DNA of 41,840 nucleotides from Candidatus Poseidoniaceae archaeon (GTDB taxonomy: Archaea > Thermoplasmatota > Poseidoniia > Poseidoniales > Poseidoniaceae): positions 1-41,840 of the forward strand of contig DUKM01000002.1 of the NCBI GenBank assembly GCA_013329255.1. Reading direction: 5' to 3'. The notes beneath the pieces were generated by a model, which was not told the origin of the DNA, did no database searches, and worked only from the letters and a program-made list of their open reading frames with translations. The position numbers and the translations under genes were made by a program. Positions 1,556 to 39,646 of the stretch are shown piece by piece. Numbering within the stretch: the first letter of the stretch is position 1; each line of letters opens with the position of its first letter.

Positions 1556-1597
1556 GGCGTGCATATCCTTTATTTTACCACGGGTCTTGGATGGAGC

Positions 1598-2023: not shown

Positions 2024-2030
2024 TGGTGTG

Positions 2031-3197: not shown

Positions 3198-3281
3198 CTC
3201 GGACATCCGGTGCCAACCGGCGCACTGCCAATCATCGTGGCGTGGCCAGAATGAAGGGTGAGGTTCAAGACTCCTCAGCAA

Positions 3282-3300
3282 CCCCTTGAGGGAAAAGGGG
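3282..3300 (+). promoter_or_regulatory. Small inverted repeat next to a ribosome binding site
   Basis: CCCCTT (3282-3287) and AAGGGG (3295-3300) are perfect complements separated by 7 bases. The right arm runs into the G-rich ribosome site (GGAG 3301-3304) of the gene starting at 3308. In RNA this 6-bp hairpin could limit access to the site, or it could be the remnant of a terminator for the upstream gene. Only the complementarity is seen; a role is conjecture. Confidence 0.3.
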
Positions 3301-3307
3301 GGAGAAC

Positions 3308-5166: not shown

Positions 5167-5231
5167 AGTCGCTGATTCACAGCAACTTCCTCGCCCGTGG
5201 GGTTTGTATTTGGGTGACGATTGGCCGAACC

Positions 5232-8449: not shown

Positions 8450-8548
8450 GATTTACGGGCGCCACCCATGGATTAAGTCCCTTTTGAATCACCCGTGTCG
8501 ATTGGTTTGAAGGAGAATGGTGAAGAAGGAGAGCCTCAACGCTAAAGC

Positions 8549-9679: not shown

Positions 9680-9716
9680 ACAATGGAGACATAAGGGGCG
9701 GCCTCCTCCCATTGGC

Positions 9717-10865
9717 ATGGTCAACTTCCAACTTGATGAAATGCAGGAGATGTTGAAGGAACTCGCCCGTGAGTTTGCCTTGGAAGAGATTCGTCCTAAA
9801 GCAGAACACTGGGATGCGACCTCTACCTACCCAAAAGAAACAATCCTCGCAGCTCATGAAATGGGTTTGCTCAACCTCCACATCCCGGAAGCATACGGAG
9901 GCCCTGGTCTGGGATCCATGGAAGAAGTCCTCGTCAATGAAGAACTGGCATGGGGCGACCCTGGATTCGCAACAGCAGCTTACGCCACCGCCCTCGCCTG
10001 CGCTCCGATCATCACAGGCGCAACAGACGCTCAAAAGGAAGTCTGGCTTCGCAAAGTGGCAGAGGAGGGAGCGCTTGCATCGTACGCAGTCACTGAACCT
10101 GGAGCTGGGTCCGATGTCGCAGCGTGCAAAACAAGCGCCGTTCGAGACGGGGATGACTACATCATCAACGGCTCGAAAATGTGGATCACCGGCGCAGGTC
10201 ATGCAGATTTCTTCTTCGTTCTTGCCAAGACAGACATGGATGCTGGTTACCGCGGCATGTCTGGCTTCATCGTCGAAAAGGATGCAGCAGGGTTCAGCCT
10301 TGGTAAGAAAGAAAGCAACATGGGCCAGCGGTGCTCAGACACTCGCTCAATCAACTTCGATGATGTAAGGGTGCCAGCCGAACACCTCATCGGCGGTTCG
10401 GAATCTGGAGGCTGGATGAACGCCATGAAGGCCTTTGACATGTCACGGCCAAACATTGCCGCTCACGCAACGGGCTTGGCACGCGCTTCTTACGAGCACG
10501 CTTTGCAATATTCGGGAGAGCGCAAGACGTTTGGAAAGCATTTACATCAACACCAAGCGATTCAATTCATGCTGGCTGACATGAAAACAAAGATTGAGGC
10601 GTCTCGCATGTTAACATGGAAGTCGGCCGCAGAATCTGATGCTGGCATTCGCAACACTGAATCCGCTGCCCATGCAAAGCGATTTGCAGCCGACACCGCC
10701 ATGGAAGTTTCCACGGATGCAGTGCAGGTGTACGGTGGCTACGGCTATTCAGAGGAATATCCGGTGGCTCGGTTGATGCGGGCTGCAAAGGTCATGCAAA
10801 TCTACGAAGGTTCATCGCAAGTTCAACGCATGATCATTGGCCGTGAAATCACCAAAGACCTGTGA
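9717..10865 (+). CDS. Acyl-CoA dehydrogenase
   Basis: FAD enzyme introducing the alpha-beta double bond in acyl-CoA (fatty acid or branched-chain amino acid breakdown), passing electrons to ETF. The 382 residues match the family length. Motifs: YAVTEPGAGSDVA (first ACAD signature), WITGAGHADFFFVLAKTD, QAIQFMLADM, VQVYGGYGYSEEYP (second signature) and QIYEGSSQVQR, whose E364 aligns with the catalytic glutamate of medium-chain ACADs. The start is the ATG preceding VNFQLDEMQ; the longer open frame runs back into the exchanger gene. The chain-length specificity cannot be told. It could act downstream of the E1 enzyme at 5.2 kb in branched-chain amino acid catabolism, but the two are not in one operon. 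Confidence 0.93.
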   Translation: MVNFQLDEMQEMLKELAREFALEEIRPKAEHWDATSTYPKETILAAHEMGLLNLHIPEAYGGPGLGSMEEVLVNEELAWGDPGFATAAYATALACAPIITGATDAQKEVWLRKVAEEGALASYAVTEPGAGSDVAACKTSAVRDGDDYIINGSKMWITGAGHADFFFVLAKTDMDAGYRGMSGFIVEKDAAGFSLGKKESNMGQRCSDTRSINFDDVRVPAEHLIGGSESGGWMNAMKAFDMSRPNIAAHATGLARASYEHALQYSGERKTFGKHLHQHQAIQFMLADMKTKIEASRMLTWKSAAESDAGIRNTESAAHAKRFAADTAMEVSTDAVQVYGGYGYSEEYPVARLMRAAKVMQIYEGSSQVQRMIIGREITKDL

Positions 10866-10871
10866 GCCGGT

Positions 10872-11645
10872 TTAGGGTCTTCTGTCGTCCCAGCGGGCGC
10901 TTTGAGCCAATTCTTCCATGTGCTGTTCATAGGCCTCCCACATCCGTTGTTCAGCCAGTTCCTCTTCGCTGAGTTGTGGCGGGTCATGAAATGGAGGATT
11001 TGCTTCAACGGCGGTCGTATTGGTTTGGCCTTCTTGAGGTGATGGGACAGATTCAGAGGGTTCAATCTCCGAGAAAGTTTCATCCCATCCCCCGTGCACA
11101 TTGTCTGGTTCTTCATCGAATTCATCATAGTCTTCAAAGGCACCAAAAGGCCCTTCATTCCCGAAAGCCATCGAATGAAAGACAACCATTTCATCTTGAA
11201 ACACCATGACCTTGGCCAGTTCTTCCCGCGGACAAATGAGGAATTGAGCCAGCAGAGGGATGGTCATCGCAGTTGTAAGGTCATTGTGAAGTGAGAGTCC
11301 AAGCGCGGCGAGTTGATCGCCGACAGGCAGCGGTGACGCATGGCGAATGTTAAGGCAAAGATTAGCGCAGTACTGGTTTTTGTGGATGACATCCCTCTTT
11401 CGAGCTCCACCTTGTACGGTCACGTTCCAAGGGTTAGAAGGGTCGATTGAAAGCACCGTCATAGGACCTTTGAACCGTGTTGCAGAGATGACGTACCAAC
11501 GCTTAGATTGACCTTGCACTCTGATTTTGATGTCATGCTCTTCTTGGCCCAAACTCTCCGCCCAAGGGTTTGCTTCGATAATGCTGGCGAGAAGTTCAAG
11601 GGAACGCTGTTCTGGTTCTGTAAATGGGGATACACTTGCGTTCAT
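10872..11645 (-). CDS. Hypothetical protein with acidic, disordered C-terminus
   Basis: A 257-residue protein I do not recognise. Residues 1-165 look like one mixed alpha/beta domain (strands RWYVISATRF, MTVLSID, WNVTVQGG, then helices around 110-140 and strands KVMVFQDEMVVFHS). Residues 170-225 are rich in Asp/Glu/Pro/Thr and probably disordered. The last 30 form a charged helix. It has no signal peptide and no membrane segment. It converges on the acyl-CoA dehydrogenase gene with 6 bases between stops, and is divergent from the MobA-like gene. Its ATG follows an AT-rich box by about 24 bases, with a direct repeat between. The codon pattern and clean frame support a real gene. Confidence 0.65.
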   Translation of the reverse strand: MNASVSPFTEPEQRSLELLASIIEANPWAESLGQEEHDIKIRVQGQSKRWYVISATRFKGPMTVLSIDPSNPWNVTVQGGARKRDVIHKNQYCANLCLNIRHASPLPVGDQLAALGLSLHNDLTTAMTIPLLAQFLICPREELAKVMVFQDEMVVFHSMAFGNEGPFGAFEDYDEFDEEPDNVHGGWDETFSEIEPSESVPSPQEGQTNTTAVEANPPFHDPPQLSEEELAEQRMWEAYEQHMEELAQSARWDDRRP

Positions 11646-11663
11646 ACGGTCAAAGAACGGTCA
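11646..11663. repeat. Tandem heptamer ACGGTCA spaced one helical turn
   Basis: ACGGTCA occurs at 11646-11652 and again at 11657-11663, with starts 11 bases apart, so both copies face the same side of the helix. They lie directly before the ATG (minus strand, 11645) of the hypothetical gene, where the transcription start of a leaderless message would be, and 55 bases before the divergent MobA-like gene. This is a plausible operator for a regulator binding side by side, but only the repeat itself is seen. Confidence 0.3.
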
Positions 11664-11717
11664 GTGTATTTCAAGGAAAAACGAAAAGGCCTTGACACCC
11701 CAATCCAAGCACCAACC

Positions 11718-12305
11718 ATGGTCCGGGGATGCCCAGCGCTGGTTCTCGCCGCTGGGGCAAGCAGCCGATTGGGTCAACCAAAAGCACTGGTCTCCATTGG
11801 CCCGACAACCCTTGTTGGTCTTGCAGTGCGTCGTTTGCTTCAAGCAGGCTGCACCCCAATCATCGTCGTCACTCGCCAATCACTGCAGTTTGAAGTCATG
11901 ACAAAGGCAGTGGATGCAACGGTTGTTGTGAATAAGAAACCAGAGCAAGGGCGTACGGGGAGTGTTCAATGCGGCATCATGGCGCTCATGGGCGACAAGG
12001 GACGCATGCCCAGGTGCGTCGTCATCGCCCCTGTTGATCGCCCGGGGTGGACTGCGAACGATGCTCGTCTGCTCATGGGGCAAGTCACAACCTCGACGCT
12101 GGCATACGAGGGCCGACCCGGCCACCCGTTGTTCCTCCATCACCCCGACGTTGAGGCTGTGCTCGCCGCGCCACCCCAGACCCCCCTTCGTGACCTCATC
12201 ACGCCTCAACTTGTGCAAGGTTCATGCCCGCACATTGGGCTTAACATCGACACTCCAGAAGATTTAGACGCTCTGCTGAGGCTTGAATCTGTCTTGCTCG
12301 AATAA
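11718..12305 (+). CDS. MobA-like NTP transferase (molybdenum cofactor nucleotidyltransferase type)
   Basis: Predicted to transfer CMP or GMP to molybdopterin, making the dinucleotide cofactor. The 195 residues carry the nucleotidyltransferase signature LAAGASSRLGQPKAL (10-24), a metal-binding segment VVIAPVDRPG (101-110), the GRPGHP box (132-137) and NIDTPEDLDAL (176-186), all as in MocA/CoxC-type enzymes. The next gene, 50 bases on, is XdhC, so the substrate is probably the cofactor for a xanthine-oxidase-family enzyme, which by family knowledge uses MCD; the hydroxylase operon at 23.2 kb is the obvious client. ATG 11718 was chosen because homology starts there; upstream codons run into the divergent gene. 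Confidence 0.83.
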   Translation: MVRGCPALVLAAGASSRLGQPKALVSIGPTTLVGLAVRRLLQAGCTPIIVVTRQSLQFEVMTKAVDATVVVNKKPEQGRTGSVQCGIMALMGDKGRMPRCVVIAPVDRPGWTANDARLLMGQVTTSTLAYEGRPGHPLFLHHPDVEAVLAAPPQTPLRDLITPQLVQGSCPHIGLNIDTPEDLDALLRLESVLLE

Positions 12306-12355
12306 GCACCGAGCACAAGGGCAAAGGGTATGTGTAAGCGCTTCGAGCGGTGAAT

Positions 12356-13225
12356 ATGACTGCAACCGTTCTCGCTTGGGCTTTGGCTCAACTCGAGGCG
12401 GGCGATAAGGTCGTTCTGGCAAGCGTCATCGATACTTCTGGAAGCGTTCCAGGCAAAGCAGGTGCTCGACTTGCAATGCGCTCTTCGGATCAGGAATGGG
12501 TCGGTACGGTTGGTGGTGCTGGTCTTGAAATGACGGTGCTGAAGCGAAGCGCTTTGCTGCTTGGCAAGCATAATCTGCCTGCCGGCGAAGTCCACACATA
12601 CGGTTTGAATAAAGGGGCGAAGGGCTATGAAGTAACGGCGTTAGATTCTCTATGTGGGGGGCGCGTTACCCTCAGTATGGAGGTTCTTGTACCAATGCCA
12701 CACGTGTTGCTGATCGGAGGAGGCCATTGCGCTCAAGCGATTGCTCCGGCCCTTGATGCGCTTGGATGGTCTCATTCAATTCACGATACCCGTGAAGAAT
12801 TTTGCAACGCCAACCTGTTTCCCCAAGCCGAGGCTCACTATCACATGGAAGCCTCTTCTTTTGTTGAACACCACGATGCAGCGACGCTCAGTCGATACTC
12901 GGATGTTCTGCTGCTTGGCCATGATTGGGCCGAAGATCAAACCCGTTTGCTGGGCCTCTTGGCTGCATTGCAGGATCAGAATTCAACCCTTGACGGCCGC
13001 TCGGGGCCTCGAGTTGGTGTGATTGGAAGCCGATCCAAATGGCAGGCCTTTGAACAGGCTGCATTAGATCAAGGTGTCAAACAAGATGTTCTTGACCAAG
13101 TGATATGCCCAATTGGCGTTAACATCGGAGCTGAATCGCCCGAAGAAATTGCAGTTGCGGTTGTGGCCCAAATTATGTCTCTTCACAAAGGCGTGAACCC
13201 AAGCGATGCCACATGGCGAGTCTGA
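12356..13225 (+). CDS. xdhC: XdhC/CoxI family molybdenum-hydroxylase maturation factor
   Basis: XdhC-type chaperones bind the molybdenum cofactor, promote its sulfuration and insert it into xanthine-oxidase-family apoenzymes. The 289 residues show the N-terminal XdhC/CoxI domain (ASVIDTSGSVPGKAGARLAM, then VGTVGGAGLE) and a C-terminal Rossmann domain with VLLIGGGHCAQAIAPAL, followed by GHDWAEDQ, GVIGSRSK and the ICPIGVNIGAESPEEIAVAVVAQI ending that is characteristic of the family. The start is ATG 12356; GTG 12350 is an alternative within the ribosome-site-like GGTGA. It lies in one unit with the MobA-like gene and converges on orn with 3 bases between stops. Confidence 0.9.
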   Translation: MTATVLAWALAQLEAGDKVVLASVIDTSGSVPGKAGARLAMRSSDQEWVGTVGGAGLEMTVLKRSALLLGKHNLPAGEVHTYGLNKGAKGYEVTALDSLCGGRVTLSMEVLVPMPHVLLIGGGHCAQAIAPALDALGWSHSIHDTREEFCNANLFPQAEAHYHMEASSFVEHHDAATLSRYSDVLLLGHDWAEDQTRLLGLLAALQDQNSTLDGRSGPRVGVIGSRSKWQAFEQAALDQGVKQDVLDQVICPIGVNIGAESPEEIAVAVVAQIMSLHKGVNPSDATWRV

Positions 13226-23175: not shown

Positions 23176-23778
23176 ATGGTAGGCACCGAACACGTTGAAA
23201 TGATACCCGTCGCAAAGAAGGAAATTTGGTCCGCGAAAGTCAACGGAAGACCGGTTGAAGTCCTTGCTCCTTCGAACGCAATTCTCCTCGATGTTCTGCG
23301 GGACAAAGTTGGGACACTGGGCGTGAAACGTGGCTGCGATCTTGGAACGTGTGGCTGTTGTACCGTGATGATTGACGGCACCCCCCGCATCTCTTGCCTT
23401 TGCTTGGCAGGCCAAGTGGAAGGCACCTCCATCGTGACCGTCGAAGGATTGGCTGACGGCGCCCATCTCGCTCCGATTCAATCCTGCTTCGCAGAACATG
23501 GTGGCTCCCAATGTGGATTCTGCACCCCGGGCTTCCTCGTGACCGCCCAAGCATTGCTCAATGAAAACAGCGCTCCAACCGATCAAGAAGTCGCTCAGGC
23601 GATTGAAGGCAACCTTTGCCGATGCACCGGCTACCAACAAATTGTCGAATCCATTCAAGCCGCAGCAGCCATTCACCGTGGCGAAGCTGAGCCTGCCGCA
23701 CCCGCAAGCAACCCTCACCCAGATCCACATCCAAGTGGGCCAGAAGAACCTCAGATGCCGCCGGGCCACGCGAGATGA
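23176..23778 (+). CDS. Molybdenum hydroxylase small subunit, two [2Fe-2S] clusters (HcrC/CoxS-like)
   Basis: Electron-transfer subunit of a xanthine-oxidase-family enzyme. The plant-ferredoxin-like domain has C54, C59, C62 and C74 (GCDLGTCGCCTVMIDG and ISCL; C61 is an extra cysteine), and the helical domain has C113, C116, C148 and C150 (CGFC, NLCRCTGY), all eight ligands present. The C-terminus is extended by about 35 residues rich in Pro, Ala and His, unlike the roughly 160-residue norm. The stop overlaps the start of the large subunit gene (ATGA), so subunits are made in step. The start is ATG 23176, with no ribosome site but a hairpin just upstream; ATG 23200 would still leave the whole domain. 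Confidence 0.92.
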   Translation: MVGTEHVEMIPVAKKEIWSAKVNGRPVEVLAPSNAILLDVLRDKVGTLGVKRGCDLGTCGCCTVMIDGTPRISCLCLAGQVEGTSIVTVEGLADGAHLAPIQSCFAEHGGSQCGFCTPGFLVTAQALLNENSAPTDQEVAQAIEGNLCRCTGYQQIVESIQAAAAIHRGEAEPAAPASNPHPDPHPSGPEEPQMPPGHAR

Positions 23779-26588
23779 TTGTGATGTCAGGAGGTTACCG
23801 TCAGCAACCCGGTGGAGCCGGGAAAATAACACGAAAAGACGGCAAGCGCGTCGCTGGAAAGCAAGCATTCCCTCCACCTGGCTCGGGCGGTTCCAACCCA
23901 ACCATGGCACCGAGAGATCTCGATTTTATCCCTGAGATGGTGGGCGGCAAAGAAGCCCAACCAGCAGGCGCCCACGTGCACGATCGTGCGCGGACTGGCA
24001 CTTCTGTTGGGAAGCCAACCGCTCTGGTTGATTCGAACGCAAAGGTGACCGGCCAAGCTTGGTACGGCGATGACGTACGTCTAGCCAACGAAGTGATTGG
24101 CAAAATCCTCCGCTCGCCACATCATTACGCAAGAATAAAATCGATTGACACTTCCAAAGTTGAAGCCCTCCCCGGCGTTTTAGCAGTCGCCACTGGCGCA
24201 GATTCCCCTCACCAATTCGGTGTGCTTCCTGTGACCAAAGACGAACACGCTATGGCCGTTGAAAAGGTAAGGCACGTCGGCGATCTTGTCGCATCTGTGG
24301 CAGCGGTTGACGAAGCGACGGCGATGGCTGCACTCAACCTGTTTGAAGTCGAATACGAAGTGTTGGAACCTGTGTTCGACCCAAAGAAGGGTTTGGAAGA
24401 CGCTGATGAGCCAATTCACTGGCGAGGTAAGTACCATTTGGCTCGAACCAACGTCCAAAAACGGGTGTTCCAAGAATTCGGAGATCGCTCTCTTGTTGAA
24501 AAGCCGCTTGCTTCCTCTCATGGCAAGTGGAAAATGGCCGGTGTCCATCACGGGTTCACTGAACCTCACGCTGTTGTTGCCCATTGGGATCCAAACGGTA
24601 GATTGCAACTCTATACGCCTCAGCAGGTTCCTCACTACACCCACAGGGCTCTCGCTACGGTCTTGGATGTGCCAATGCACCAAATCAACGTCATTCGAAC
24701 CTTTGTCGGTGGCGGTTTTGGCGGAAAATCAGATCCTTTCCCGCACGAAATGTGCGCCGCCATCCTCGCTCGTAAATCCGGCCGACCTGTTCGCATTACC
24801 TTTGATCGAGAAGAAGTGTACTGGATCAACCGTGGGCGGCACCCAAGTCATATCGAAGTGAAGATGACAGCAGATGAAGAAGCTCGTATCTCTGGGTTTG
24901 ACATCGATGCTCTGATTGACGGCGGAGGTTTCGCTTCATTCGGCCACGTCACTTCCTACTACAACGGCGTGCTCGCTACAGCGCCTTACGAACTGGGCTC
25001 GTTCCACTACACCGGCGCTCGCGTCTGGACCAACAAACCAGCATCCGGTGCAATGCGTGGCCACGGTGCCGTGAACACTCGGTGTGCTGTTGAAGTTGGT
25101 TTGGATGAAATGTCCGAGCAGATGCAAGTTGATCCAATCGATCTTCGTCTTGCCAATCTATTGCCTCCTCACAGCCGAACCATCAGCGGCTTCCGAATCA
25201 CTTCCAACGGAATGCGCGAAGCCCTCGAAAAGGTCCGTGAAGGCTCAGAATGGGACAATAAGTTCCGCCAAATGCCGCTTGGAAAGGGCCTTGGCATTGG
25301 ATGTGGTTTCTTCATTTCAGGTTCTGGATTGCCAATTCACTGGGATCCAAACCGATTCCCTCACGCAACGGTCCACATCCAAGTGGACATGGATGGAGGC
25401 GTCACGGTTCATACGGGCGCTGCAGACATCGGACAAGGTTCGACAACCGCCGTTGCTCAGGTCGTCTCAGAAGTGCTTGCATTGCCCCTTGAAATGATTC
25501 ATGTTCGAAGCCATGAAAGCGATACATCACCCGTCGATTTGGGTTCTTACTCGAGTAGGGTCACCTTCATGAACGCAAACGCAGCCATCCGGGCAGCGCT
25601 TGAAATCCGTGAACAAATACTCGCTGCAGCTTGGGAAATCCTTGGTTACCATCCGAACAATTTGGTGCTCAACGATCGCCGGATTTACTACAAGCACGAC
25701 CCTGCAATTGGCGTTTCTTATCTGAAAGCCCTGCACAAGGCACAGGAAGACAAGGGTGCGCTCATAGCAAGCGGTGCCTATCGTTCTCCACCAATGGGTG
25801 GCGTCCACAAAGGCGCAGCAGCAGGTCTGGCTCCCGCATACTCCTTCTCTGCTTATGTTGCAGAAGTGGATGTCGATGTGGAAACTGGCATCATCAAGTG
25901 CACCAAAGTTTGGGCCGCTCACGATTGTGGAAAAGCACTCAACCCGCTTGCTGTCAAAGGCCAAATCATCGGCTCATGTCACATGGGACTGGGCCAAGTT
26001 CTCTCTGAGAAAATGGTTTATGGCCGCACCGGGCATTTACAAAACCCAAACCTCTTGGAATACAAAATCCCATCCGTGCATGAAATGCCGCACGTGGTTC
26101 CAATCATCATCGAATCTTGCGATCCTGAGGGGCCTTTTGGTGCCAAAGAAGCAGGTGAGGGGCCACTTCTTCCAATTCTACCCGCTGTGGTCAACGCGGT
26201 CTACGACGCCATCGGCATTCGTCTGCGCGACCTCCCTCTCACGCCAGATGTTGTGTTCAAGGGCATCGAGAAAGCAATGAAGGCTGCTGGTGCTGACGAT
26301 CCGCTGGATCTTAAATCACCTCGAGTCACGCACGGCGACTTGCAACCGGTTTTGGTCAAGCGAGCGGCAGAACACAAAACGCGAGATCAAGCGCGACAAC
26401 GCAGCGAAGACACCAGTCAGTATGTCAACGGCGTCTTGTTCGGCTTTGATCCGAACATCCCGCTTGAAGACCAAGTGGAAGGTTGGCGCACGGCCACCGA
26501 ACCAGATCCTGAGCAGCTGGCTGAACTCGGCCTGGCCGGAAAGGCTTGGCTCAAAAAAGAACAACGACACATGGGCGGTGATGAATGA
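23775..26588 (+). CDS. Molybdenum hydroxylase large, molybdopterin-binding subunit (HcrA/CoxL-like)
   Basis: Catalytic subunit holding the Mo cofactor. Of 937 residues, the first 75 are a Gly/Pro/Lys-rich extension; the family domain starts at VGKPTALVDSNAKVTGQAWYGDD. Seen further on: HGFTEPHAVVAHWD (E263), TPQQVPH, the cofactor box GGGFGGK (312-318), GAMRGHGAVN (425-434), a GQGSTT cofactor stretch, and KEAGEGP near 791-797, whose E795 is the candidate active-site base. The CO dehydrogenase loop AYRCSFR is absent, so it is not a form I CODH. KEAGEGP and the FAD partner point to the 4-hydroxybenzoyl-CoA reductase side of the family. The C-terminus has about 100 extra residues. It overlaps both neighbours by 4 bases. 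The actual substrate is unknown. Confidence 0.93.
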   Translation: MIVMSGGYRQQPGGAGKITRKDGKRVAGKQAFPPPGSGGSNPTMAPRDLDFIPEMVGGKEAQPAGAHVHDRARTGTSVGKPTALVDSNAKVTGQAWYGDDVRLANEVIGKILRSPHHYARIKSIDTSKVEALPGVLAVATGADSPHQFGVLPVTKDEHAMAVEKVRHVGDLVASVAAVDEATAMAALNLFEVEYEVLEPVFDPKKGLEDADEPIHWRGKYHLARTNVQKRVFQEFGDRSLVEKPLASSHGKWKMAGVHHGFTEPHAVVAHWDPNGRLQLYTPQQVPHYTHRALATVLDVPMHQINVIRTFVGGGFGGKSDPFPHEMCAAILARKSGRPVRITFDREEVYWINRGRHPSHIEVKMTADEEARISGFDIDALIDGGGFASFGHVTSYYNGVLATAPYELGSFHYTGARVWTNKPASGAMRGHGAVNTRCAVEVGLDEMSEQMQVDPIDLRLANLLPPHSRTISGFRITSNGMREALEKVREGSEWDNKFRQMPLGKGLGIGCGFFISGSGLPIHWDPNRFPHATVHIQVDMDGGVTVHTGAADIGQGSTTAVAQVVSEVLALPLEMIHVRSHESDTSPVDLGSYSSRVTFMNANAAIRAALEIREQILAAAWEILGYHPNNLVLNDRRIYYKHDPAIGVSYLKALHKAQEDKGALIASGAYRSPPMGGVHKGAAAGLAPAYSFSAYVAEVDVDVETGIIKCTKVWAAHDCGKALNPLAVKGQIIGSCHMGLGQVLSEKMVYGRTGHLQNPNLLEYKIPSVHEMPHVVPIIIESCDPEGPFGAKEAGEGPLLPILPAVVNAVYDAIGIRLRDLPLTPDVVFKGIEKAMKAAGADDPLDLKSPRVTHGDLQPVLVKRAAEHKTRDQARQRSEDTSQYVNGVLFGFDPNIPLEDQVEGWRTATEPDPEQLAELGLAGKAWLKKEQRHMGGDE

Positions 26589-27562
26589 TGCTGATGCCTC
26601 CATTTACCCTCCATCACCCTACAACAGTCGACGAAGCATGTGAACTTGCAGCCGAGTTAATGGCTGCTGGCGAATCCTTTGATTGGGTCGCTGGCGGAAC
26701 CGATTTGCTGGCCAATTACAAATGGCACATCAACACCAAGCCGCACGTCATTTCGCTCGCACGAATCGAAGGAACATCGACCATTTCTGCAAATGAACTC
26801 GGTTGCATGATCCGATTGGCGGACTTGACCGAAGCCAACGGTGTGCATCCCGTCATCGTTCAAGCAGCCTCAAAGGTCGCTTCATCGTTAATCCGAAACA
26901 ACGCAACCTTGGGTGGCAACCTCTGTTTGGACACACGATGCTTCTGGTACAATCAAGGTGAAGATTGGCGGCGTTCGATTGACTGGTGCCATAAAGCAGA
27001 TTGTGGTACCGGCGCAGATTGCCGTGTGATTCCAAACCAAAACACACTCTGTGTGGCCACCTATCAGGGCGATATTGCACCTACGCTGATGGTGTTGGGT
27101 GCCAGCGTGCACCTCATCGGCCCAAACGGGGCCCGCACCGTGCCAATTGACGCCTTCTACCAACTCGACGGGATCAAGAAGAACGTGCTTGAAGAAGGAG
27201 AGTTCCTTCTCAAAGTGACGCTCCCAGACGATGCAGCAAAGCGCACAGGCTCGTACCAAAAGCTTCGAGTTCGCGACACATGGGATTTCCCCGAAGCAGG
27301 TGTTGCCGCATCGTGGATTGAAGGCGATCCAGCATCGCTTGTCATTGCCACAACAGCGCTTGAATCAATTCCACGTTGCCACCCTGACGAAGTCGCAGCC
27401 ATCTTTGCCGATGGCTGGAGTGGTGCAGCCTCAGTGAAGGCCCTTTCTTCTGCTATGCAAAAGAGCGTTAAGCCGGTGAACAACACCGCTTTGCCACCTC
27501 GATACCGCAAGTCAATGGTTCGTGTGCTCACCAAACGAGCAATACAAGGGTTGCTGGAGTGA
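26585..27562 (+). CDS. Molybdenum hydroxylase FAD subunit with extra Fe-S loop (HcrB-like)
   Basis: Medium subunit that binds FAD between VAGGTDLL (35-42) and TLGGNLC (108-114). Right after the second box comes a Cys-rich insertion not found in ordinary CoxM/XdhB: DTRC (C119), DWC (C135), C140, C146 and C156. The spacing C119-C135-C146-C156 closely parallels the four ligands of the additional [4Fe-4S] cluster in the beta subunit of 4-hydroxybenzoyl-CoA reductase, and the DTRCFWYNQ surroundings match too. In that enzyme the cluster supports electron input for a ring reduction. This subunit is therefore the best evidence for the enzyme's subfamily. At 325 residues the length is normal for HcrB. 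Its last codons contain the ribosome site (GGAGTGA, 27556-27562) for the next gene. Confidence 0.92.
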   Translation: MMLMPPFTLHHPTTVDEACELAAELMAAGESFDWVAGGTDLLANYKWHINTKPHVISLARIEGTSTISANELGCMIRLADLTEANGVHPVIVQAASKVASSLIRNNATLGGNLCLDTRCFWYNQGEDWRRSIDWCHKADCGTGADCRVIPNQNTLCVATYQGDIAPTLMVLGASVHLIGPNGARTVPIDAFYQLDGIKKNVLEEGEFLLKVTLPDDAAKRTGSYQKLRVRDTWDFPEAGVAASWIEGDPASLVIATTALESIPRCHPDEVAAIFADGWSGAASVKALSSAMQKSVKPVNNTALPPRYRKSMVRVLTKRAIQGLLE

Positions 27563-27567
27563 TTAAG

Positions 27568-28548
27568 ATGACGCGAAGCAACCTTCTCTTCACCCTTGTC
27601 CTCCTGCTAACGGTTGGGTTAAGCCTGCCACCCACGGTTGTGGCGCAAGATCAATTTGAGGCGCCCAGTTGGACGCTCGGATGGTCGACAGACATGGACG
27701 ATGGCTACACCGTTGAGTTGGACGATGATTGGGATATTGAGGGCGAAATCGTTGCCTATGTGGAGAACACAAGAATGAGTCAAGTGCAACTCGAGTTGAC
27801 CTATGAGGTCAACACGTGGGTTCCATTCACATTCAGCGGGCCGGAGACGATTACAGTCGGTGCAGGGGAAAACAAGAGCTTCACCATATCGCTCGTGACA
27901 GATAACGATGCAGATGTTCGCGAATACAACCCTGATAACAATTCCATGCTGACGGTTATGGCCGAAGAAAAGGTCGGCGATACTTCCACTGAAACACAAG
28001 AGATCGAAGGCGACATTCACGTGCCAAAAATGTTCAATTTGCGGCCTGAAGTGACCCTTTCCAATGATGATCTCTATGCAGGTTCATCGGTTGAAATTTC
28101 AATCCAAATTCTCAATCTTGGAAACGCTAAGGATGCCGTTAAGGAAGCATCTGCACAGGTGAGAAGTTGCCCACACCTTTCGGTCGAAGGTTTGGATGCT
28201 TTGGCCAACACGGTCGTTGAAACAACCGATGCACGAAACGGCAAAGACACCTTCTCAACGTTGACGCTCGTCGCTTCAGAGAGCCAACCTCGCAGAGCGT
28301 GTGAACTTACCATCTCAATCATCTCCGAGGGCGATAACGCCGCCCGAAGCACAACCTTCGACGTCGAAGTGTTTGCCTACGATGGTGAAGAGAAACCCTC
28401 GAGTGATTCGGGCGACAGCGACGACAGCGATACCTCGGATGACGGGCTCAACGTTGAATCGAACACGCTCCCCGGCTTCCTCGCTTTTGAGACGATCCTC
28501 ATGCTTGCAACATGCAGTGTGCTTCGCCGGAAAAAGACAACCCTTTGA
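27568..28548 (+). CDS. Secreted surface protein with PGF-CTERM-like anchor
   Basis: A 326-residue exported protein. A signal peptide (about 1-26, LLFTLVLLLTVGLSLPPTVVAQ) is followed by two beta-sandwich-like repeats (about 35-145 and 150-270; NLRPEVTLSNDDLYAGSSV and ILNLGNAKDA are typical of CARDB/APHP-like domains), then a Ser/Asp-rich spacer (about 275-295) and the tail PGFLAFETILMLATC with a final RRKK. This tripartite ending (PGF, hydrophobic stretch, basic end) is the archaeosortase A sorting signal. The Ser-rich spacer may be glycosylated. ATG 27568 has GGAGTGA 5 bases upstream; GTG 27559 is possible. It overlaps or abuts the molybdenum operon, yet those subunits lack signal peptides, so a shared function is not evident. 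Confidence 0.78.
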   Translation: MTRSNLLFTLVLLLTVGLSLPPTVVAQDQFEAPSWTLGWSTDMDDGYTVELDDDWDIEGEIVAYVENTRMSQVQLELTYEVNTWVPFTFSGPETITVGAGENKSFTISLVTDNDADVREYNPDNNSMLTVMAEEKVGDTSTETQEIEGDIHVPKMFNLRPEVTLSNDDLYAGSSVEISIQILNLGNAKDAVKEASAQVRSCPHLSVEGLDALANTVVETTDARNGKDTFSTLTLVASESQPRRACELTISIISEGDNAARSTTFDVEVFAYDGEEKPSSDSGDSDDSDTSDDGLNVESNTLPGFLAFETILMLATCSVLRRKKTTL

Positions 28549-28737
28549 ACAAAACGCAATTTTCTTACACTTTTGAGGAGAAATCCTTCATAATTTTGTG
28601 CATAGGGGGTATATGAACCTCTTGTCCTATGAAAATTCTACGGAGCACTCATGGAGAACCATTATGAGTGGAGCGAAGTTCCGACAGATGTCTTTACGAG
28701 CAATTGCAACGCGAGATGATGAACAGGAGGGAGAGAA
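28549..28737 (+). promoter_or_regulatory. Longest intergenic region: probable terminator and promoter of the MoxR island
   Basis: This 189-base gap separates the molybdenum/PGF unit from the MoxR island. The first 30 bases are T-rich (AATTTTCTTACACTTTT, 28558-28574), which could terminate archaeal transcription. TTCATAATTTT (28586-28596), preceded by GAAATCC, is a candidate TATA/BRE pair, and GGTATATGAA (28608-28617) is another. AGGAGG at 28725-28730 is the ribosome site of the next gene, 7 bases before its ATG. I see no convincing small gene here. Confidence 0.35.
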
Positions 28738-30324
28738 ATGGCAGAAACAGAAGGAAAAAAACTCTCCGTCGAATCCTGGCTCAAAGTTGGGTTGATGGCC
28801 TCGCTCGTACTTTCAGTTGCCCTCATTGGATTGGTCAGCTTCAACAAGCAGACCGTGCTTTCTCCCTACGCTACAGCAGACAATGAATACTCCAACCAAC
28901 AGTTAACTTCGATGCGAGCGGATTTCTCAGAAATAGATTACTCAATCGCTAACACCATGTCTACGCCCATGCTCGTCAACGATTGGCAAGATCCTCATCG
29001 TACCATGCTTGTCATTGCGGGCCCAGAAAAACCATTCGACGCCGCAGAAGCCTCAGCGCTGTATGACTTCGTCACAAAGAAAGGGGGCAAGGTCATTCTT
29101 GCAGCCAACTCCACGAACGCTCAACTGGTCGCTGACCAATTTGGTGTCAAGTACTTCGGAGACATGGTCCTCGATGACCAACGGTACTATGAAATGTCCA
29201 ACGAACTCGATGAAGTTCAACCTGGGGACTACCGGCGCCTTTGGGCTGCGGCAAGTCTTCGCGCCAACGTCACCGAAATGGGCGATGAGCGGTTGATTCC
29301 TTGTGCACAGGGTAACTTGGACATTGGCGTTTACGACAACTGCCGCCTTCCAGTCTTGTTCCACCGCCCCACAGCCATTCAGGTCCTTGACGACCAAACT
29401 GACACCAACCGTGACATCAATGTCTTAGCGGCTGCATCAACCTCCGCCGTGATCGTCGCTGATTCGAGCAACATCGACATTAACAGCGACAAAAACCCAA
29501 CACTTGGTGAAGGAAAAACCGGACTGATTGTTCGAATTGACTATCCAGGAATCAACGTCTTGGACGTTATGGAAAACAAGGATCAAGGCGAAGTCTCTGT
29601 CACTGGTTCAATTGTCTTTGTCGCCGACCATTCCGTGTTGGCCAACCACCTTTGGGACAAAGACATCGCTGAAGAACTCGGCTACCAACAGTGCAGTTCT
29701 CCGTTCTATGTTGAGCAAGGCCACAACTGCTGGAACTCAGATTCTAACGGCCTCTCCGACGCTCAAGGCGACACAACATGGAACGGCAACGGGCAATACT
29801 TCCAAGCGCTCATGCAGGACATGATGGAAAAAGACAATGAGGAGATTTCCACAACCGTGACTCGATTCAACTCCAACTTCTACATCGTGTTTGATGAGAG
29901 CCGTCACGTGTCCAGCGCCCTCGCTTCGCCTTTTACTGAGGCTATGGGCGCCGTCGTTCTGCTCACAAGCGATGTTGTCCTCAAGTGGCTGATTGTCCTC
30001 AATCTGTTCGCCCTCCTCGCTATTGCGATCATGGTGGTACCAGAGAAAGAAAACTGGCGCCACGTGTTCGATCTCACTCGATTTAGAGAGCGTCCCAAGA
30101 AGGTCGACGCCACCCAGTATCAAATGCGCACCCGGGAAGCATTGCTCTCCAAGGTACGTCAGTTCAACGACTTGACGCGTGATGAATTCATGCGCAAATC
30201 CCCAGCGGAAATCATGCAGATGGTGCGTGATCCGCGATTGGTGGAACTTATCAGTTCCAACCGCATCTACTCCAGCGAAGAATTGCGAGAGGTAATCCCG
30301 CATATCCGACGTTGGGGAAATTGA
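28738..30324 (+). CDS. DUF4350-like membrane protein of the MoxR island
   Basis: A 528-residue protein with a transmembrane helix at about 15-35, a large outside domain (about 40-400), a second helix at about 413-435 (LKWLIVLNLFALLAIAIMVV) and a cytoplasmic tail of about 90 residues rich in Arg/Lys and helices. The outside domain contains the pattern KGGKVILAANSTNAQLVADQFG and a late FDESRHVSS, as in DUF4350 proteins, which are GATase-like and are regularly encoded beside MoxR and DUF58 genes. Four cysteines in the domain (C193 and C204 region, C318, C329) may pair. It begins the island after a strong AGGAGG site, and moxR follows 19 bases later. Exact role unknown; perhaps a scaffold. Confidence 0.72.
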   Translation: MAETEGKKLSVESWLKVGLMASLVLSVALIGLVSFNKQTVLSPYATADNEYSNQQLTSMRADFSEIDYSIANTMSTPMLVNDWQDPHRTMLVIAGPEKPFDAAEASALYDFVTKKGGKVILAANSTNAQLVADQFGVKYFGDMVLDDQRYYEMSNELDEVQPGDYRRLWAAASLRANVTEMGDERLIPCAQGNLDIGVYDNCRLPVLFHRPTAIQVLDDQTDTNRDINVLAAASTSAVIVADSSNIDINSDKNPTLGEGKTGLIVRIDYPGINVLDVMENKDQGEVSVTGSIVFVADHSVLANHLWDKDIAEELGYQQCSSPFYVEQGHNCWNSDSNGLSDAQGDTTWNGNGQYFQALMQDMMEKDNEEISTTVTRFNSNFYIVFDESRHVSSALASPFTEAMGAVVLLTSDVVLKWLIVLNLFALLAIAIMVVPEKENWRHVFDLTRFRERPKKVDATQYQMRTREALLSKVRQFNDLTRDEFMRKSPAEIMQMVRDPRLVELISSNRIYSSEELREVIPHIRRWGN

Positions 30325-30343
30325 AAATCGGAGGACAATAGAC

Positions 30344-31495
30344 ATGCAACCCCCTACCCCACCCGCAGCCCCGCCCGCGCCAGCGCCGCCAATGCCAATG
30401 GCTCCAGCCGCCCCCGCAGCACCTGTTGCGCCAGCACCACCAATGCCGGCAGCACCAGCACCAGCAGCACCAGCGGCCCCAGCCCCAGCACCAGCAGCAC
30501 CGGCCGCTCCGGCCCAGCCGAAGCACCAAGCCACACCCGAGGTCAAAGCTCGCTTGACCCACGTCGGCGCAATCTCTCAAGCGATTGCTGCTGAAGTGCA
30601 GAAAGTGATTATCGGTAAGCCCCACGTTATCGACAACGTGTTGATCAACATCTTGTCGAACGGTAACCTTCTCTTCGAAGATTACCCTGGTTTGGCGAAG
30701 ACCTTGATGACCAACACCTTCGCTGATGCGTTGGGTTGCGATTTCAAGCGTGTCCAATTCACGCCTGACTTGCTCCCTGCTGACATCACAGGTACCAACA
30801 TCTACGACGCAAAGAAGGGTGAATTCACCTTCAAGCCAGGACCTCTGTTCTGCAACCTTCTTCTTGCTGACGAGATTAACCGTGCTCCTCCAAAGACCCA
30901 AGCTGCTTTGCTTGAGGCTATGCAAGAGAAGCAGGTGACCATTGGTACGGTTACTCACAAACTCCCTGCACCGTTCATTGTTATGGCCACTCAAAACCCG
31001 GTCGAGCAAGAAGGTACCTACCCGCTTCCTGAAGCACAACTTGACCGTTTCATGTTCAAGATGTCCGTGGGCTACCCAGACCGTGCTGACGAAGACGAAA
31101 TTCTGCGCCGACGTATTGCTCGTGGTAAGGACGCCGTCGATGTCGATGTGATCACTGACCCACAGCGAGTTATCGCTATGCAACAAGCTTGTGAAGACGT
31201 TTACGTCGACCCTGCTCTCCGCATGTACATGGTCGAAATCGTGTCACGAACCCGTGAAGATCCTCGTGTTCTTGTCGGTGCTTCGCCCCGTGGTTCCCAA
31301 GCATTGCTCAAGACATCCCGTGCAGCAGCAGCCCTTCGTGGTCGTGACTTCGTCACACCTGACGACATCAAGGCTGTCTCTGAACTTGCTATCGCACACC
31401 GAATTATTCTCAAGCCTGAGCATCAAATCAAAGGCCTTGAGCCTGGTGAAGTGATTCAAGCGATCCTACGAGAAGTCCCTGTGCCAACTGTTTGA
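30344..31495 (+). CDS. moxR: MoxR-family AAA+ ATPase with Pro/Ala-rich N-terminal tail
   Basis: AAA+ chaperone-like ATPase thought to remodel or activate client complexes, usually with vWA or DUF58 proteins. After a 59-residue tail made almost only of Pro and Ala, the AAA core has Walker A DYPGLAKT (K119, T120), ITGTNIYD, Walker B LLLADEINRAPPKTQAALLEAMQE start (172-179), sensor 1 ATQNPVEQEGTYPLPEAQLDRF and sensor 2 ASPRGSQALLK. The first Gly of the P-loop is Asp, which is common in archaeal MoxR. The 383-residue length exceeds the usual 310-330 by the tail. Ribosome site GGAGGA (30330-30335) is 8 bases from the ATG. Confidence 0.93.
   Translation: MQPPTPPAAPPAPAPPMPMAPAAPAAPVAPAPPMPAAPAPAAPAAPAPAPAAPAAPAQPKHQATPEVKARLTHVGAISQAIAAEVQKVIIGKPHVIDNVLINILSNGNLLFEDYPGLAKTLMTNTFADALGCDFKRVQFTPDLLPADITGTNIYDAKKGEFTFKPGPLFCNLLLADEINRAPPKTQAALLEAMQEKQVTIGTVTHKLPAPFIVMATQNPVEQEGTYPLPEAQLDRFMFKMSVGYPDRADEDEILRRRIARGKDAVDVDVITDPQRVIAMQQACEDVYVDPALRMYMVEIVSRTREDPRVLVGASPRGSQALLKTSRAAAALRGRDFVTPDDIKAVSELAIAHRIILKPEHQIKGLEPGEVIQAILREVPVPTV
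30347..30520 (+). repeat. Low-complexity Pro/Ala-coding tract
   Basis: Codons 2-59 of moxR are nearly all CCN and GCN, with short reiterations of CCAGCACCAGCAGCA type, giving much higher GC than the flanks and a strong strand asymmetry. On the opposite strand this creates long spurious Gly/Ala frames. The tract is prone to length change by slippage. The encoded segment should be an extended, uncharged linker. Confidence 0.85.
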
Positions 31496-31531
31496 GTTGA
31501 CGGACGTTACTTGAATTGAATTGAGGTGTTG

Positions 31532-32848
31532 ATGATGTGGAGCCGTAAATCTGCTATGCTGGGAAGTTTGGCTGTTGCCATGTATTTGCTTGGGTTGACC
31601 TTGCGAAACTCCCAACTGGTTACCATTGCGGTTGTCATCTTCGTGTTCCTTACCTGGGCTGCCCTGTTTGGCGGCCACGCCGACGTCGCTTCAAGCGGTC
31701 GTCGTGCAGAGGAATGGACCGGCGAAGAGGGTGTAGCACTGGGCAGCGTGTCTGCTCAGCGAAAACTCTCGAGCGCCCGGATTTTCGAAGACGGGGACCT
31801 GAATATCGTACTGCGGATGCAAAATAATTCGTCATTAGCCAAGATCTTGGAAGTACGAGATCGTGTTCCAGAGGTTATGCGCATCAAAGACGGTGCAAAC
31901 TACATTCTCATGGAACTTGGTCCTCGCCGGGAAACGGAAATCACTTACACCGTTGAATGCCCTCTACGAGGCTTCTACAGCGTGGGTCCTGTGGCTGTCA
32001 GGATCCAAGACCCATTCGGTCTGTTCCACAAGGAAAAGGAATTGCATGTCTACAATGATTTCCTTGTGTTCCCGAAAATGGAAGATCTGAAAGATACATT
32101 CGTTAAATCGCGTGTCCCAAAGATTTTCACCGGTGCTGTGAACATTCGACAACCAGGTCCTGGTTCCGAATTCTACTCCCTTCGAGAGTACTTCGAAGGC
32201 GATTCCTTCCGAGCCATCAACTGGTCTGCTTATGCTCGGTCTGGCAAACTCATGGTGAACGAGCGCGAACGTGATGCTGTCTCCGACATCATCATCATCG
32301 TTGACTCACGCTCGGTCGCAGAGACCGGGCCTGTTTCACGAAACGCTCTGGTGTACTCCACTCGAGCAGCAGCCTCGTTGGCCAAGTACTTCCTCGGTCG
32401 CCGTGACAGCGTTGGCGTCATCGTCTATGGCGATGAAGTGGTCAGCGTTGACCGAGACACAGGAAAGAAGCAACTCTATGTCATCTTGACCAAACTTGCA
32501 GGCGCTGTTGCACGCGGTAACATTCCATTGCAGGTCGTCGTCAACCGTATTTTGCCTCACATCAACAAGGGAAGTCCGATTATCTTCCTTTCCAACTTGG
32601 AGGACGATCCAACCATTGTCAACGCACTTCGAGATTTCCGAGCCCGTGACTTCGACGTCACCGTGCTCACCCCATCTTCACTCGAATTCGAGTTCGATGC
32701 ACGCCGCCTCGACCGAACCGGGTATGAAGTCATGAAGACCGAACGAGACGTGCTCATCAGCGAATTGCGCGGCCTCGGTGTCAACATCATGGATTGGGAG
32801 CCTGACATGCTTCTGTCAACCGCTCTTGCTGGAGCACGAGGATTCTGA
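31532..32848 (+). CDS. DUF58 protein (vWA-like) of the MoxR island
   Basis: A 438-residue protein with two N-terminal transmembrane helices (about 8-24 and 30-46), a beta-rich region (about 60-190, with PLRGFYSVGPVAVRIQDPFG), and the DUF58 core: a PGPGSEFYSLREYFEGDSFR-type motif followed by INWSAYARSGKLMVNERE, then a vWA-like fold with IIIVDSRS in the position of the metal-site strand (the DxSxS motif is reduced to DSRS). DUF58 proteins are standard partners of MoxR ATPases. The start is ATG 31532 or 31535 after GAGGTG (31523-31528). The stop is 9 bases before the next gene, whose ribosome site overlaps it. Confidence 0.87.
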   Translation: MMWSRKSAMLGSLAVAMYLLGLTLRNSQLVTIAVVIFVFLTWAALFGGHADVASSGRRAEEWTGEEGVALGSVSAQRKLSSARIFEDGDLNIVLRMQNNSSLAKILEVRDRVPEVMRIKDGANYILMELGPRRETEITYTVECPLRGFYSVGPVAVRIQDPFGLFHKEKELHVYNDFLVFPKMEDLKDTFVKSRVPKIFTGAVNIRQPGPGSEFYSLREYFEGDSFRAINWSAYARSGKLMVNERERDAVSDIIIIVDSRSVAETGPVSRNALVYSTRAAASLAKYFLGRRDSVGVIVYGDEVVSVDRDTGKKQLYVILTKLAGAVARGNIPLQVVVNRILPHINKGSPIIFLSNLEDDPTIVNALRDFRARDFDVTVLTPSSLEFEFDARRLDRTGYEVMKTERDVLISELRGLGVNIMDWEPDMLLSTALAGARGF

Positions 32849-32857
32849 GGTGAGAAG

Positions 32858-33781
32858 ATGACTGTAAACAAGCCATCCAGCGATACCGCCCACTTGTACG
32901 ACGGAAAGACCGTTCGTTCTTCTGCCCCTTCACGAAAGAAGGCAGCTGGACAAATTGGGTCCGGAAGCGAAATCCCCAAGGACGCAATCCCGACCGTCGA
33001 AATACCTTCTTTCATCGAAAGTTTGCTCGGCGGACCATTGGTCCCGAAAACCAAGTTTTTGCCACCGGCAAAGTGGGTACAAACCCTTCAACTCTGTGTG
33101 TATGGGGTACTTGTGGCTCTTGCCATGCTCACCTACATGATTTCTCCACCAGAGGGCACCATCTGGTACATGCTTACTGGAAGCCTCAGCATCGCTACGA
33201 TTCTGCAGTTGGTCTTGATTGTCACCGCTACAGGAACCGGCTTTTGGGGCACCTTCCAACGCGACGGGCGGTTCACTTTGATCAGCAACATTCTGTTCAT
33301 TCTCGCCATTTTGCGATTCGCATCATCGAAGGTGACCCTGTCAAGTGATTTGTTTGGATTGCAAGACAAACCTTTCCTTCTCTCTGCACTTGTTGTTATT
33401 TACGCAGTGTTGCTCATCATGTACTTTGAACTCAGCAACGGTGTGCTCCGGTATTCAATGCTGGACACGAGCATCCGCACCAATGAAGTGTATGTGATGA
33501 ACCCTCTGAAAATTGTCGGTAAGTACCACCGCTCGTTGATCATCAACCCAATCATTGCGGTTGTTCTTGCGACAGTCGTGCTTTCTGCAAACACAATTCT
33601 TCCGTTCTTTGTCGGTATCTTCTCCAAGGATACTGCAACTCGGATGGAAGAATCGGTTGAACTGATTTCCGTCTATGGCGTTGCCCTTGGAACCTTCTTT
33701 GTCTTCTGTGTTGTTGGAGGACTGTTTGCCCTCAACCTTCCAATGCACCTGCAAAAATTCCGTGAGAAGCGTGCAGAGTGA
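32858..33781 (+). CDS. Polytopic membrane protein closing the MoxR island
   Basis: A 307-residue protein: a soluble, Ser/Lys-rich N-terminus (about 1-70), then about six hydrophobic segments (around 76-95, 103-125, 138-155, 168-187, 230-250 and 270-293), with a polar loop near 190-225 that includes NEVYVMNPLKIVGKYHRSL. I do not recognise the family. GAGGTGA (32847-32853) is 4 bases before the ATG. Its place at the end of the DUF4350-moxR-DUF58 row suggests it is the membrane client or platform of this system. It converges on the aspartate kinase gene, with stops 1 base apart. Confidence 0.75.
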   Translation: MTVNKPSSDTAHLYDGKTVRSSAPSRKKAAGQIGSGSEIPKDAIPTVEIPSFIESLLGGPLVPKTKFLPPAKWVQTLQLCVYGVLVALAMLTYMISPPEGTIWYMLTGSLSIATILQLVLIVTATGTGFWGTFQRDGRFTLISNILFILAILRFASSKVTLSSDLFGLQDKPFLLSALVVIYAVLLIMYFELSNGVLRYSMLDTSIRTNEVYVMNPLKIVGKYHRSLIINPIIAVVLATVVLSANTILPFFVGIFSKDTATRMEESVELISVYGVALGTFFVFCVVGGLFALNLPMHLQKFREKRAE

Positions 33782-39010: not shown

Positions 39011-39646
39011 TCATTCAATTTGCTCGGAACTCCAATGCATCATCGCAATTTCTGCTCTGCTGAGGTGTTCTTGAAGGGTCGATCGAGGGGTGTCGATGAG
39101 TTCTGCGAGTTCTCGCAAATTGATTTTCTTTGGGTGCTCATAATACCCCGAGGATACAGCGATTTTCATGCACTCAATTTGGCGCTCTGTCAGTAAGGTT
39201 TCGATGATGCTGGTGTTGCTTTCCATTTCCACAACTTTCACTGAATCGGGAGGGAGTTGGGTGCGTGCAATTTTCAAAAAGTCGGAGATCCCGCTCGGAA
39301 CACCTCTCACCTTGATCGAAATCCCCTCGCCGCCGTAGGTGTAGGGTGGTAGAATATGGATGTTTGAAAATTTAATTGCAGCGATAGAGAGTGGATGGGA
39401 ATTCCATACGACAAGATAACCCCCGTCACCAACACCCAACGTAGCCTCGACTGTTAGAAACGGAACCTCATTGAGATCCTCAGGCCCCATGCCTTCACAA
39501 AAAGTGGGATGAATGAGTTGCCGGATGCCGTCTTCTCCTATATCCAAATGCCCTACAACCTCCAAAACATGCGCAATTTTGGCAATTGGCGCATATTCTG
39601 ATGTGGCCACCGTTTCGGCAGTCCAAGTGAGGTGGATTTCTCGCAT
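39011..39646 (-). CDS. Bat-type HTH_10 transcriptional regulator
   Basis: A 211-residue DNA-binding protein. The C-terminal 55 residues (about 150-201) are a clear HTH_10 domain: LLTERQIECMKIAVSSGYYE, followed by KKINLRELAELIDTPRSTLQEHLSRAE, as in haloarchaeal Bat-family regulators. The N-terminal 145 residues are a mixed alpha/beta region of a type common in this family and may sense a ligand; I see no PAS or GAF signature. The gene is first in a minus-strand row with the aromatic pathway genes, so it may regulate or autoregulate that operon. A TATA-like box sits 25 bases before its ATG and there is no ribosome site, suggesting a leaderless message. Confidence 0.87.
   Translation of the reverse strand: MREIHLTWTAETVATSEYAPIAKIAHVLEVVGHLDIGEDGIRQLIHPTFCEGMGPEDLNEVPFLTVEATLGVGDGGYLVVWNSHPLSIAAIKFSNIHILPPYTYGGEGISIKVRGVPSGISDFLKIARTQLPPDSVKVVEMESNTSIIETLLTERQIECMKIAVSSGYYEHPKKINLRELAELIDTPRSTLQEHLSRAEIAMMHWSSEQIE

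Follow-up and report, generated by a model that had tools for sequence, protein, structure and literature searches.

A core molybdoenzyme of Marine Group II archaea from the sister group of 4-hydroxybenzoyl-CoA reductase

In the 4-hydroxybenzoyl-CoA reductase (4-HBCR, HcrABC) of Thauera aromatica, a bacterial enzyme that removes hydroxyl groups from aromatic acids, Tyr326 of the large subunit HcrA has a catalytic role, and cysteines C122, C138, C146 and C155 of the FAD subunit HcrB reportedly bind the [4Fe-4S] cluster in the structure of that enzyme. E. coli PaoABC oxidises aldehydes, yet its FAD subunit has a [4Fe-4S] cluster too (PMC13404670). The archaea most abundant in surface waters include Candidatus Poseidoniales (Marine Group II). 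Rinke et al. reported that their genomes encode every step of molybdenum-cofactor synthesis, the passages on this naming no enzyme that uses the cofactor (PMC6461757). Damashek et al. (2021) listed xdhC and yagS in Thalassarchaeaceae and inferred xanthine catabolism from two MAGs (PMC9723583), and the study by Tully (2019) makes no mention of the pathway terms that were searched (PMC6336850). A search of open-access papers, which is no proof of novelty, found a benzoyl-CoA or 4-HBCR-type pathway nowhere assigned to Marine Group II.

We analysed a stretch of 41,840 nucleotides (the window) from a Candidatus Poseidoniaceae archaeon (assembly GCA_013329255.1, contig DUKM01000002.1, positions 1 to 41,840), and computed family branch, conservation of cysteines and other residues, core status and co-distribution from sequence, structure models, phylogeny and genomic distribution. 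The original prediction of a surface-ocean archaeon was correct, as relatives of the window's genus are Candidatus Poseidoniales. Positions 23176-27562 encode the small [2Fe-2S], large molybdenum and FAD subunits of a xanthine oxidase-family enzyme. The three genes lie on the plus strand in the order small, large, FAD, with a 4-nt overlap at each junction. They specify an HcrC-like subunit with two [2Fe-2S] clusters (23176..23778, 200 aa; Pfam Fer2 and Fer2_2, the latter with E 1e-30), an HcrA-like molybdopterin subunit (23775..26588, 937 aa; Ald_Xan_dh_C and MoCoBD_1/2) and an HcrB-like FAD subunit with a loop for a probable extra [4Fe-4S] cluster (26585..27562, 325 aa; FAD_binding_5). Open reading frames and Pfam domains agree with the prediction that these overlapping genes supply all subunits of a molybdenum hydroxylase.

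Large subunits of Poseidoniales carry long N- and C-terminal extensions past the part that aligns with relatives (window residues 1-76 and 836-937), and the N-terminal one was modelled with very low confidence. Gene layout varied in other lineages. A small ORF of ~130 aa separates the small and large subunit genes in Planctomycetota (L123:4140-4550, L129:3162-3572 and L093:4087-4476). At two Thermoplasmatota loci (L152 and L153, from genomes G286 and G147), the FAD-subunit frames open far upstream without a stop, giving 803 and 1176 aa and a possible fusion to another subunit.

The best NCBIfam matches of the small, large and FAD subunits were the gamma, alpha and beta models of 4-HBCR, each scoring below its cut-off: 179 bits against TIGR03193 (cut-off 258), 772 bits against TIGR03194 (994.6) and 232 bits against TIGR03195 (404.6; next match 92). 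For the large subunit the XdhA model NF043082 came next with 510 bits, below its cut-off of 780, and the PaoC profile gave 289 bits, below its cut-off of 1180. Among PDB chains, the small subunit matched 1rm6_C best (E 9.5e-47), the large subunit scored 592 bits with 1rm6_A against 255 for the runner-up, and the FAD subunit scored 165 bits with 1rm6_B against 72. Foldseek likewise placed 1rm6 first for the AlphaFold model of the large subunit (pLDDT 76.6; target-normalised TM 0.94) and 1rm6_B first for that of the FAD subunit (pLDDT 85.5; TM 0.87). Sequence identity of the large subunit was 42% to HcrA, 33% to XdhA and 27-28% to CoxL, QorL and PaoC. As the equivalog cut-offs were missed, the enzyme should not be filed as 4-HBCR proper.

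An active-site comparison with T. aromatica had been proposed alongside the original prediction. By alignment, Poseidoniales keep HcrA Y326, H360, H453, SYSSRVTFM (520-528), E723 and E726. The tyrosine is Y396 in the window (codon 24960..24962, plus strand); it is invariant in the clade and absent from Xdh, Cox, Qor and Pao sequences, which also lack HcrA-type H360 and E723. The predicted KEAGEGP motif lies at K791-P797 (26145..26165, plus strand), where E792 corresponds to HcrA E723, missing from the other references, and E795 to E726, the family's conserved glutamate.

These comparisons bear on two familiar annotations. The enzyme could be a xanthine (purine) dehydrogenase, as annotated for the two Thalassarchaeaceae MAGs; it belongs to the same superfamily, XdhC is present, and high pbuG transcription has been reported (PMC9723583). 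However, the 4-HBCR model outscores the XdhA model by 772 to 510 bits, and the large subunit differs from E. coli XdhA at seven HcrA positions (326, 360, 521, 522, 525, 527 and 723), and we regard this identity as very improbable. An aerobic CO dehydrogenase or aldehyde oxidoreductase is brought to mind by MoxR and DUF58 genes 3' of the enzyme, which recall coxDE, but AMRGHG replaces the AYRCSF of CoxL, identity to CoxL is 28% against 42% to HcrA, and both candidates rank clearly lower in fold and sequence; the odds of such an identity seem minimal. Each of the XDH, CODH, Pao and Qor identities was set aside after comparing profile scores, residues, tree positions and folds.

The FAD subunit contains the cysteine loop that the original prediction took as a hallmark of 4-HBCR (26939..27052, plus strand). 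Its spacing is C119-x15-C135-x10-C146-x9-C156, compared with C122-x15-C138-x7-C146-x8-C155 in HcrB and C-x9-C-x8-C-x18-C in PaoB. C119, C135, C146 and C156 stand where predicted, align with the four HcrB ligands, and did not vary across the 58 FAD subunits compared, which come from Poseidoniales, other Thermoplasmata, Planctomycetota, KSB1 and Myxococcales. The FAD subunit probably carries an additional [4Fe-4S] cluster; in the structure model the loop had a pLDDT of about 56-60. The extra C140 is also present at its predicted place, but one genus (L036, L037) has lost it and it does not occur outside Poseidoniales, so it does not belong to the hallmark; as a fifth functional cysteine it was rejected. 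What stands of the hallmark is kinship with 4-HBCR and a probable additional cluster, but not exclusivity, since PaoABC has such a cluster. Because PaoABC is oxidative, the cluster cannot fix the direction of catalysis, and reading direction from it alone was rejected.

In the large-subunit tree, Poseidoniales formed one clade (100/100) nested with sequences from acid-soil Thermoplasmata, Planctomycetota, KSB1 and Myxococcales. HcrA of T. aromatica joined this group at 100/98, or 98/96 without the longest rows, and the FAD-subunit tree was concordant, with HcrB joining the clade at 96/81; in each tree a single HcrA or HcrB is biochemically proven, and it sits on a long branch. Outside the group fell XdhA and PaoC of E. 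coli, CoxL, QorL and two alphaproteobacterial homologues carried on plasmids, so that the subunits branch apart from Cox, Xdh and Pao references, as the prediction had anticipated. In a search of plasmids, the matches listed were xanthine oxidase-family relatives with identities of at most 36%. The AU test did not firmly reject a topology constrained to join Poseidoniales with Xdh-type references (p-AU 0.067), and the tree is therefore supportive rather than conclusive. The Marine Group II clade sits inside a wider sister group of 4-HBCR; since HcrA lies outside the clade, the enzyme is a sister rather than a member of 4-HBCR, and it probably works like 4-HBCR.

Distribution data overturned the view of the enzyme as an isolated oddity: it is a core, single-copy gene of the order Poseidoniales. 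The FAD subunit was found in 106 of the 117 sampled genomes of the class, including nearly all of both Poseidoniales families. In the sister group f3 it was missing from nine of ten genomes, and the tenth (G060) had only a distant relative with 33% identity. Exactly one MoCoBD_1 protein was present in each of 21 Poseidoniales genomes. Most of these 21 contain a PF00384-family protein as well, so the enzyme is the sole xanthine oxidase-family member but not necessarily the sole molybdoenzyme. With a single MoCoBD_1 protein in each genome, this enzyme is most likely what has been annotated as xanthine dehydrogenase, and the xdhC and yagS genes of Damashek et al. most likely represent this locus. 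A single conserved xanthine oxidase-family candidate can now be named for Poseidoniales.

Upstream on the plus strand lie genes for an XdhC/CoxI-type molybdenum-cofactor insertion factor (12350..13225; Pfam XdhC_C, 9e-28), 39% identical to its homologue at locus L062, and for a MocA/MobA-like NTP transferase of the molybdenum-cofactor cytidylyltransferase type (11508..12305; NTP_transf_3, 8e-24; TIGR03310, 1e-18), the first start codon of which is probably too early. The XdhC gene is close upstream of the enzyme genes in Thalassarchaeaceae and directly 5' of them in acid-soil Thermoplasmata, where XdhC/CoxI and MocA-like genes immediately precede the small subunit gene.

An acyl-CoA dehydrogenase gene (9612..10865, plus strand) is upstream in both Poseidoniales families. 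Of 25 Poseidoniales genomes, 18 have it on the same strand ~9-17 kb 5' of the FAD gene, five on another contig and two at a distance of ~52-54 kb; as gene order is long conserved, this synteny alone is weak evidence. In two KSB1 bacteria a homologue (51% identical at L083, where it immediately adjoins the enzyme genes) lies upstream of them next to a thiolase gene, and one locus (L074) has an enoyl-CoA hydratase and a hydroxyacyl-CoA dehydrogenase there as well. In KSB1 the enzyme genes are thus set among genes of the beta-oxidation type.

Directly downstream, a block encoding a CARDB protein, DUF4350, MoxR AAA+, DUF58 and a 307-aa orphan (27559..33781, plus strand) follows the enzyme genes in all Poseidoniales loci that extend far enough. 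Each of its genes was present in 19-21 of the 21 loci compared, a set that includes several truncated ones. A functional link between the CARDB-DUF4350-MoxR-DUF58 genes and the enzyme is uncertain. Proteins with vWA, DUF58 or AAA+ domains, recalling coxDE, were also seen near the enzyme genes at four other loci (L127, L095, L123 and L097). An HTH_10 regulator is encoded on the minus strand at 39011..39646, and in many Thalassarchaeaceae its homologue immediately precedes the enzyme genes. Neither a CoA ligase nor a ferredoxin was recognised in the operon.

The original prediction had found no aromatic pathway gene nearby. This is true of the window but misleading, as most Poseidoniales have a BoxB-like gene cluster elsewhere and three genomes (G044, G059 and G119) have Bcr-like genes. 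The BoxB-like di-iron protein was found in 97 of the 117 class genomes and in none of the ten f3 genomes, nine of which also lack the FAD subunit. It was not matched in the window's own genome, which is 74% complete, nor in three others of the same genus sampled. Its best PDB match was the benzoyl-CoA 2,3-epoxidase BoxB (3per, E 1.5e-53), and the ligand motifs GDTE, EExRH, DRDGK and EExxH are kept; against TIGR03225 the BoxB-like proteins scored 227 bits, below the cut-off of 499. The gene clusters with those for crotonases, hydroxyacyl-CoA dehydrogenase and aldehyde dehydrogenase, and no BoxA or BoxC equivalog was seen beside it. An HTH_10 regulator and a conserved ~180-aa orphan protein adjoin the cluster (L168:8595-9755 and orthologues). 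The HTH_10 regulators beside the molybdoenzyme and beside the BoxB-like gene are homologous mainly in the DNA-binding domain, so that a link between the two loci through shared regulators is only suggestive.

Benzoyl-CoA reductase was rejected as a general partner in Poseidoniales, being absent in 14 of 15 genomes tested. The exceptions were the BcrB-like proteins of G044, G059 and G119; in G044 (Thalassarchaeaceae), BcrB, BcrC, two BcrA/D-type activases, a Dch-like crotonase, Had, Oah and a 3-oxoadipyl-CoA-type thiolase form what looks, from its gene content, like a complete cluster for an ATP-dependent benzoyl-CoA reductase-type pathway. Had scored above its cut-off (419 bits, 339) and Oah just below (459.5 bits, 464.5). 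This cluster (L162, contig C5:34000-53000, positions 1456-11648) is ~5 kb from the BoxB-like gene, and a 1280-aa frame with a DMSO reductase-family molybdopterin domain lies near it (G044:C5:30546-32741). A BcrB-like protein was also noted in G060.

Bcr genes have been reported for Thermoplasmatota in Ca. Yaplasmales (PMC9239135). One related Thermoplasmatota genome (G326) has genes of BcrB-like and BcrA/D-like type within a few kb of its enzyme homologue, and PF06050 proteins were found in 11 of 14 enzyme-bearing f6 genomes and in G158; BcrB-like proteins are present in most f6 genomes. We compared the distributions in a phylum-wide set of 294 genomes. Among those outside Poseidoniia, 16 of the 19 that carry the enzyme also have a protein that is BoxB-like or strongly BcrB-like (>300 bits, a threshold set after the scores were seen), as against 4 of the 179 that lack the enzyme (Fisher 3e-17, which treats phylogenetically non-independent genomes as independent). 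Families f6, f14, f20, f21 and f38 followed this pattern. A dearomatising candidate without the enzyme was seen in G137, G155, G186 and G196, and the enzyme without such a candidate in three f6 genomes (G287, G318 and G321).

Taken together, an aromatic acyl-CoA is the most likely substrate, and the enzyme would feed the dearomatising step. We lean slightly towards a three-subunit molybdenum enzyme of the 4-HBCR branch, sister to the characterised one, that would act as an aryl-CoA dehydroxylase feeding ring cleavage. The substrate is probably a CoA thioester; 4-hydroxybenzoyl-CoA itself is a reasonable candidate with somewhat less than even chances. The reductive direction is rather more likely than not, and reductive dehydroxylation is favoured because of the HcrA-type residues and the benzoyl-CoA company. 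The reverse reaction, raised by the original prediction, gained no positive support.

The main competing proposal is an oxidative hydroxylase on the 4-HBCR scaffold that hydroxylates an acyl-CoA or a heteroaromatic compound, with the [4Fe-4S] cluster as the exit for electrons bound for ferredoxin, ETF or the respiratory chain. PaoABC is an example of oxidation by an enzyme with a [4Fe-4S] FAD subunit, the host order has an O2-dependent BoxB-like oxygenase, and an acyl-CoA dehydrogenase of one family is linked to the enzyme in both KSB1 and Poseidoniales. The cysteine spacing, however, is HcrB-like rather than PaoB-like, the HcrA-type residues including Y326 are retained, and the enzyme co-occurs with benzoyl-CoA dearomatising enzymes; we consider oxidation unlikely. 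Alternatively, a 4-HBCR-type reductase might use some other electron-poor hydroxyarene in place of a CoA ester, in the manner of Ucdh, which is 33% identical to 4-HBCR and dehydroxylates urolithin C, where the leaving hydroxyl is para to an ester instead of a CoA thioester (PMC12771579). Enzymes of CoA esters accompany the molybdoenzyme genes in several lineages, which speaks against such a substrate, and we give this proposal little weight.

If the aryl-CoA dehydroxylase reading is right, a low-potential donor, probably ferredoxin, would supply electrons one at a time to the FAD subunit's [4Fe-4S] cluster. From there they would travel through FAD and then both [2Fe-2S] clusters to a molybdenum centre of the cytosine-dinucleotide type, matured by XdhC and MocA. 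At this centre, where Y396 and E795 correspond to HcrA Y326 and E726, the aromatic acyl-CoA would be reductively dehydroxylated. The product, benzoyl-CoA or an analogue, would be the target of the BoxB-like di-iron epoxidase that most Poseidoniales genomes encode elsewhere. In related Thermoplasmata and a few of the Poseidoniales, a benzoyl-CoA reductase-like enzyme would attack it instead. Crotonases, hydroxyacyl-CoA dehydrogenase and thiolase would complete the route. Whether metabolism couples the molybdoenzyme to the BoxB-like enzyme is, in our estimate, an even call.

The presence of both the molybdoenzyme and the BoxB-like gene suggests that Marine Group II archaea degrade aromatic acids. 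A hybrid pathway in oxic seawater, in which 4-HBCR-type dehydroxylation of a hydroxyaryl-CoA precedes O2-dependent, BoxB-like ring opening, is put forward tentatively, as a possibility that we would not yet bet on. If it holds, planktonic archaea help to turn over aromatic dissolved organic carbon, and a core molybdoenzyme of one of the most abundant archaeal orders in the ocean carries out in oxic water a chemistry familiar from anaerobes.

Among described systems, HcrABC of T. aromatica (PDB 1rm6/1sb3) resembles the window enzyme in three-subunit layout, FAD-subunit cysteine loop, fold and the residues Y326, H360, H453, SYSSRVTFM, E723 and E726. The window enzyme differs in its identity of 42% (large) and 36% (FAD subunit), a longer loop (x10 and x9 versus x7 and x8), its large-subunit extensions and an aerobic marine host, most Poseidoniales being without benzoyl-CoA reductase. 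The co-occurring Poseidoniales protein shares its di-iron motifs with BoxB (3per), but falls below the TIGR03225 cut-off. PaoABC, the periplasmic aldehyde oxidoreductase of E. coli, has the extra [4Fe-4S] loop after the second FAD motif in common with the window enzyme, but differs in cysteine spacing, is oxidative, shows 27% large-subunit identity and lacks the HcrA-type residues. Ucdh of Enterocloster bolteae, compared here by description only, differs in acting on a non-CoA lactone in a gut anaerobe. It is likewise a xanthine oxidase-family enzyme nearest to 4-HBCR, is a proven reductive dehydroxylase, and is more active with its own XdhC (PMC12771579).
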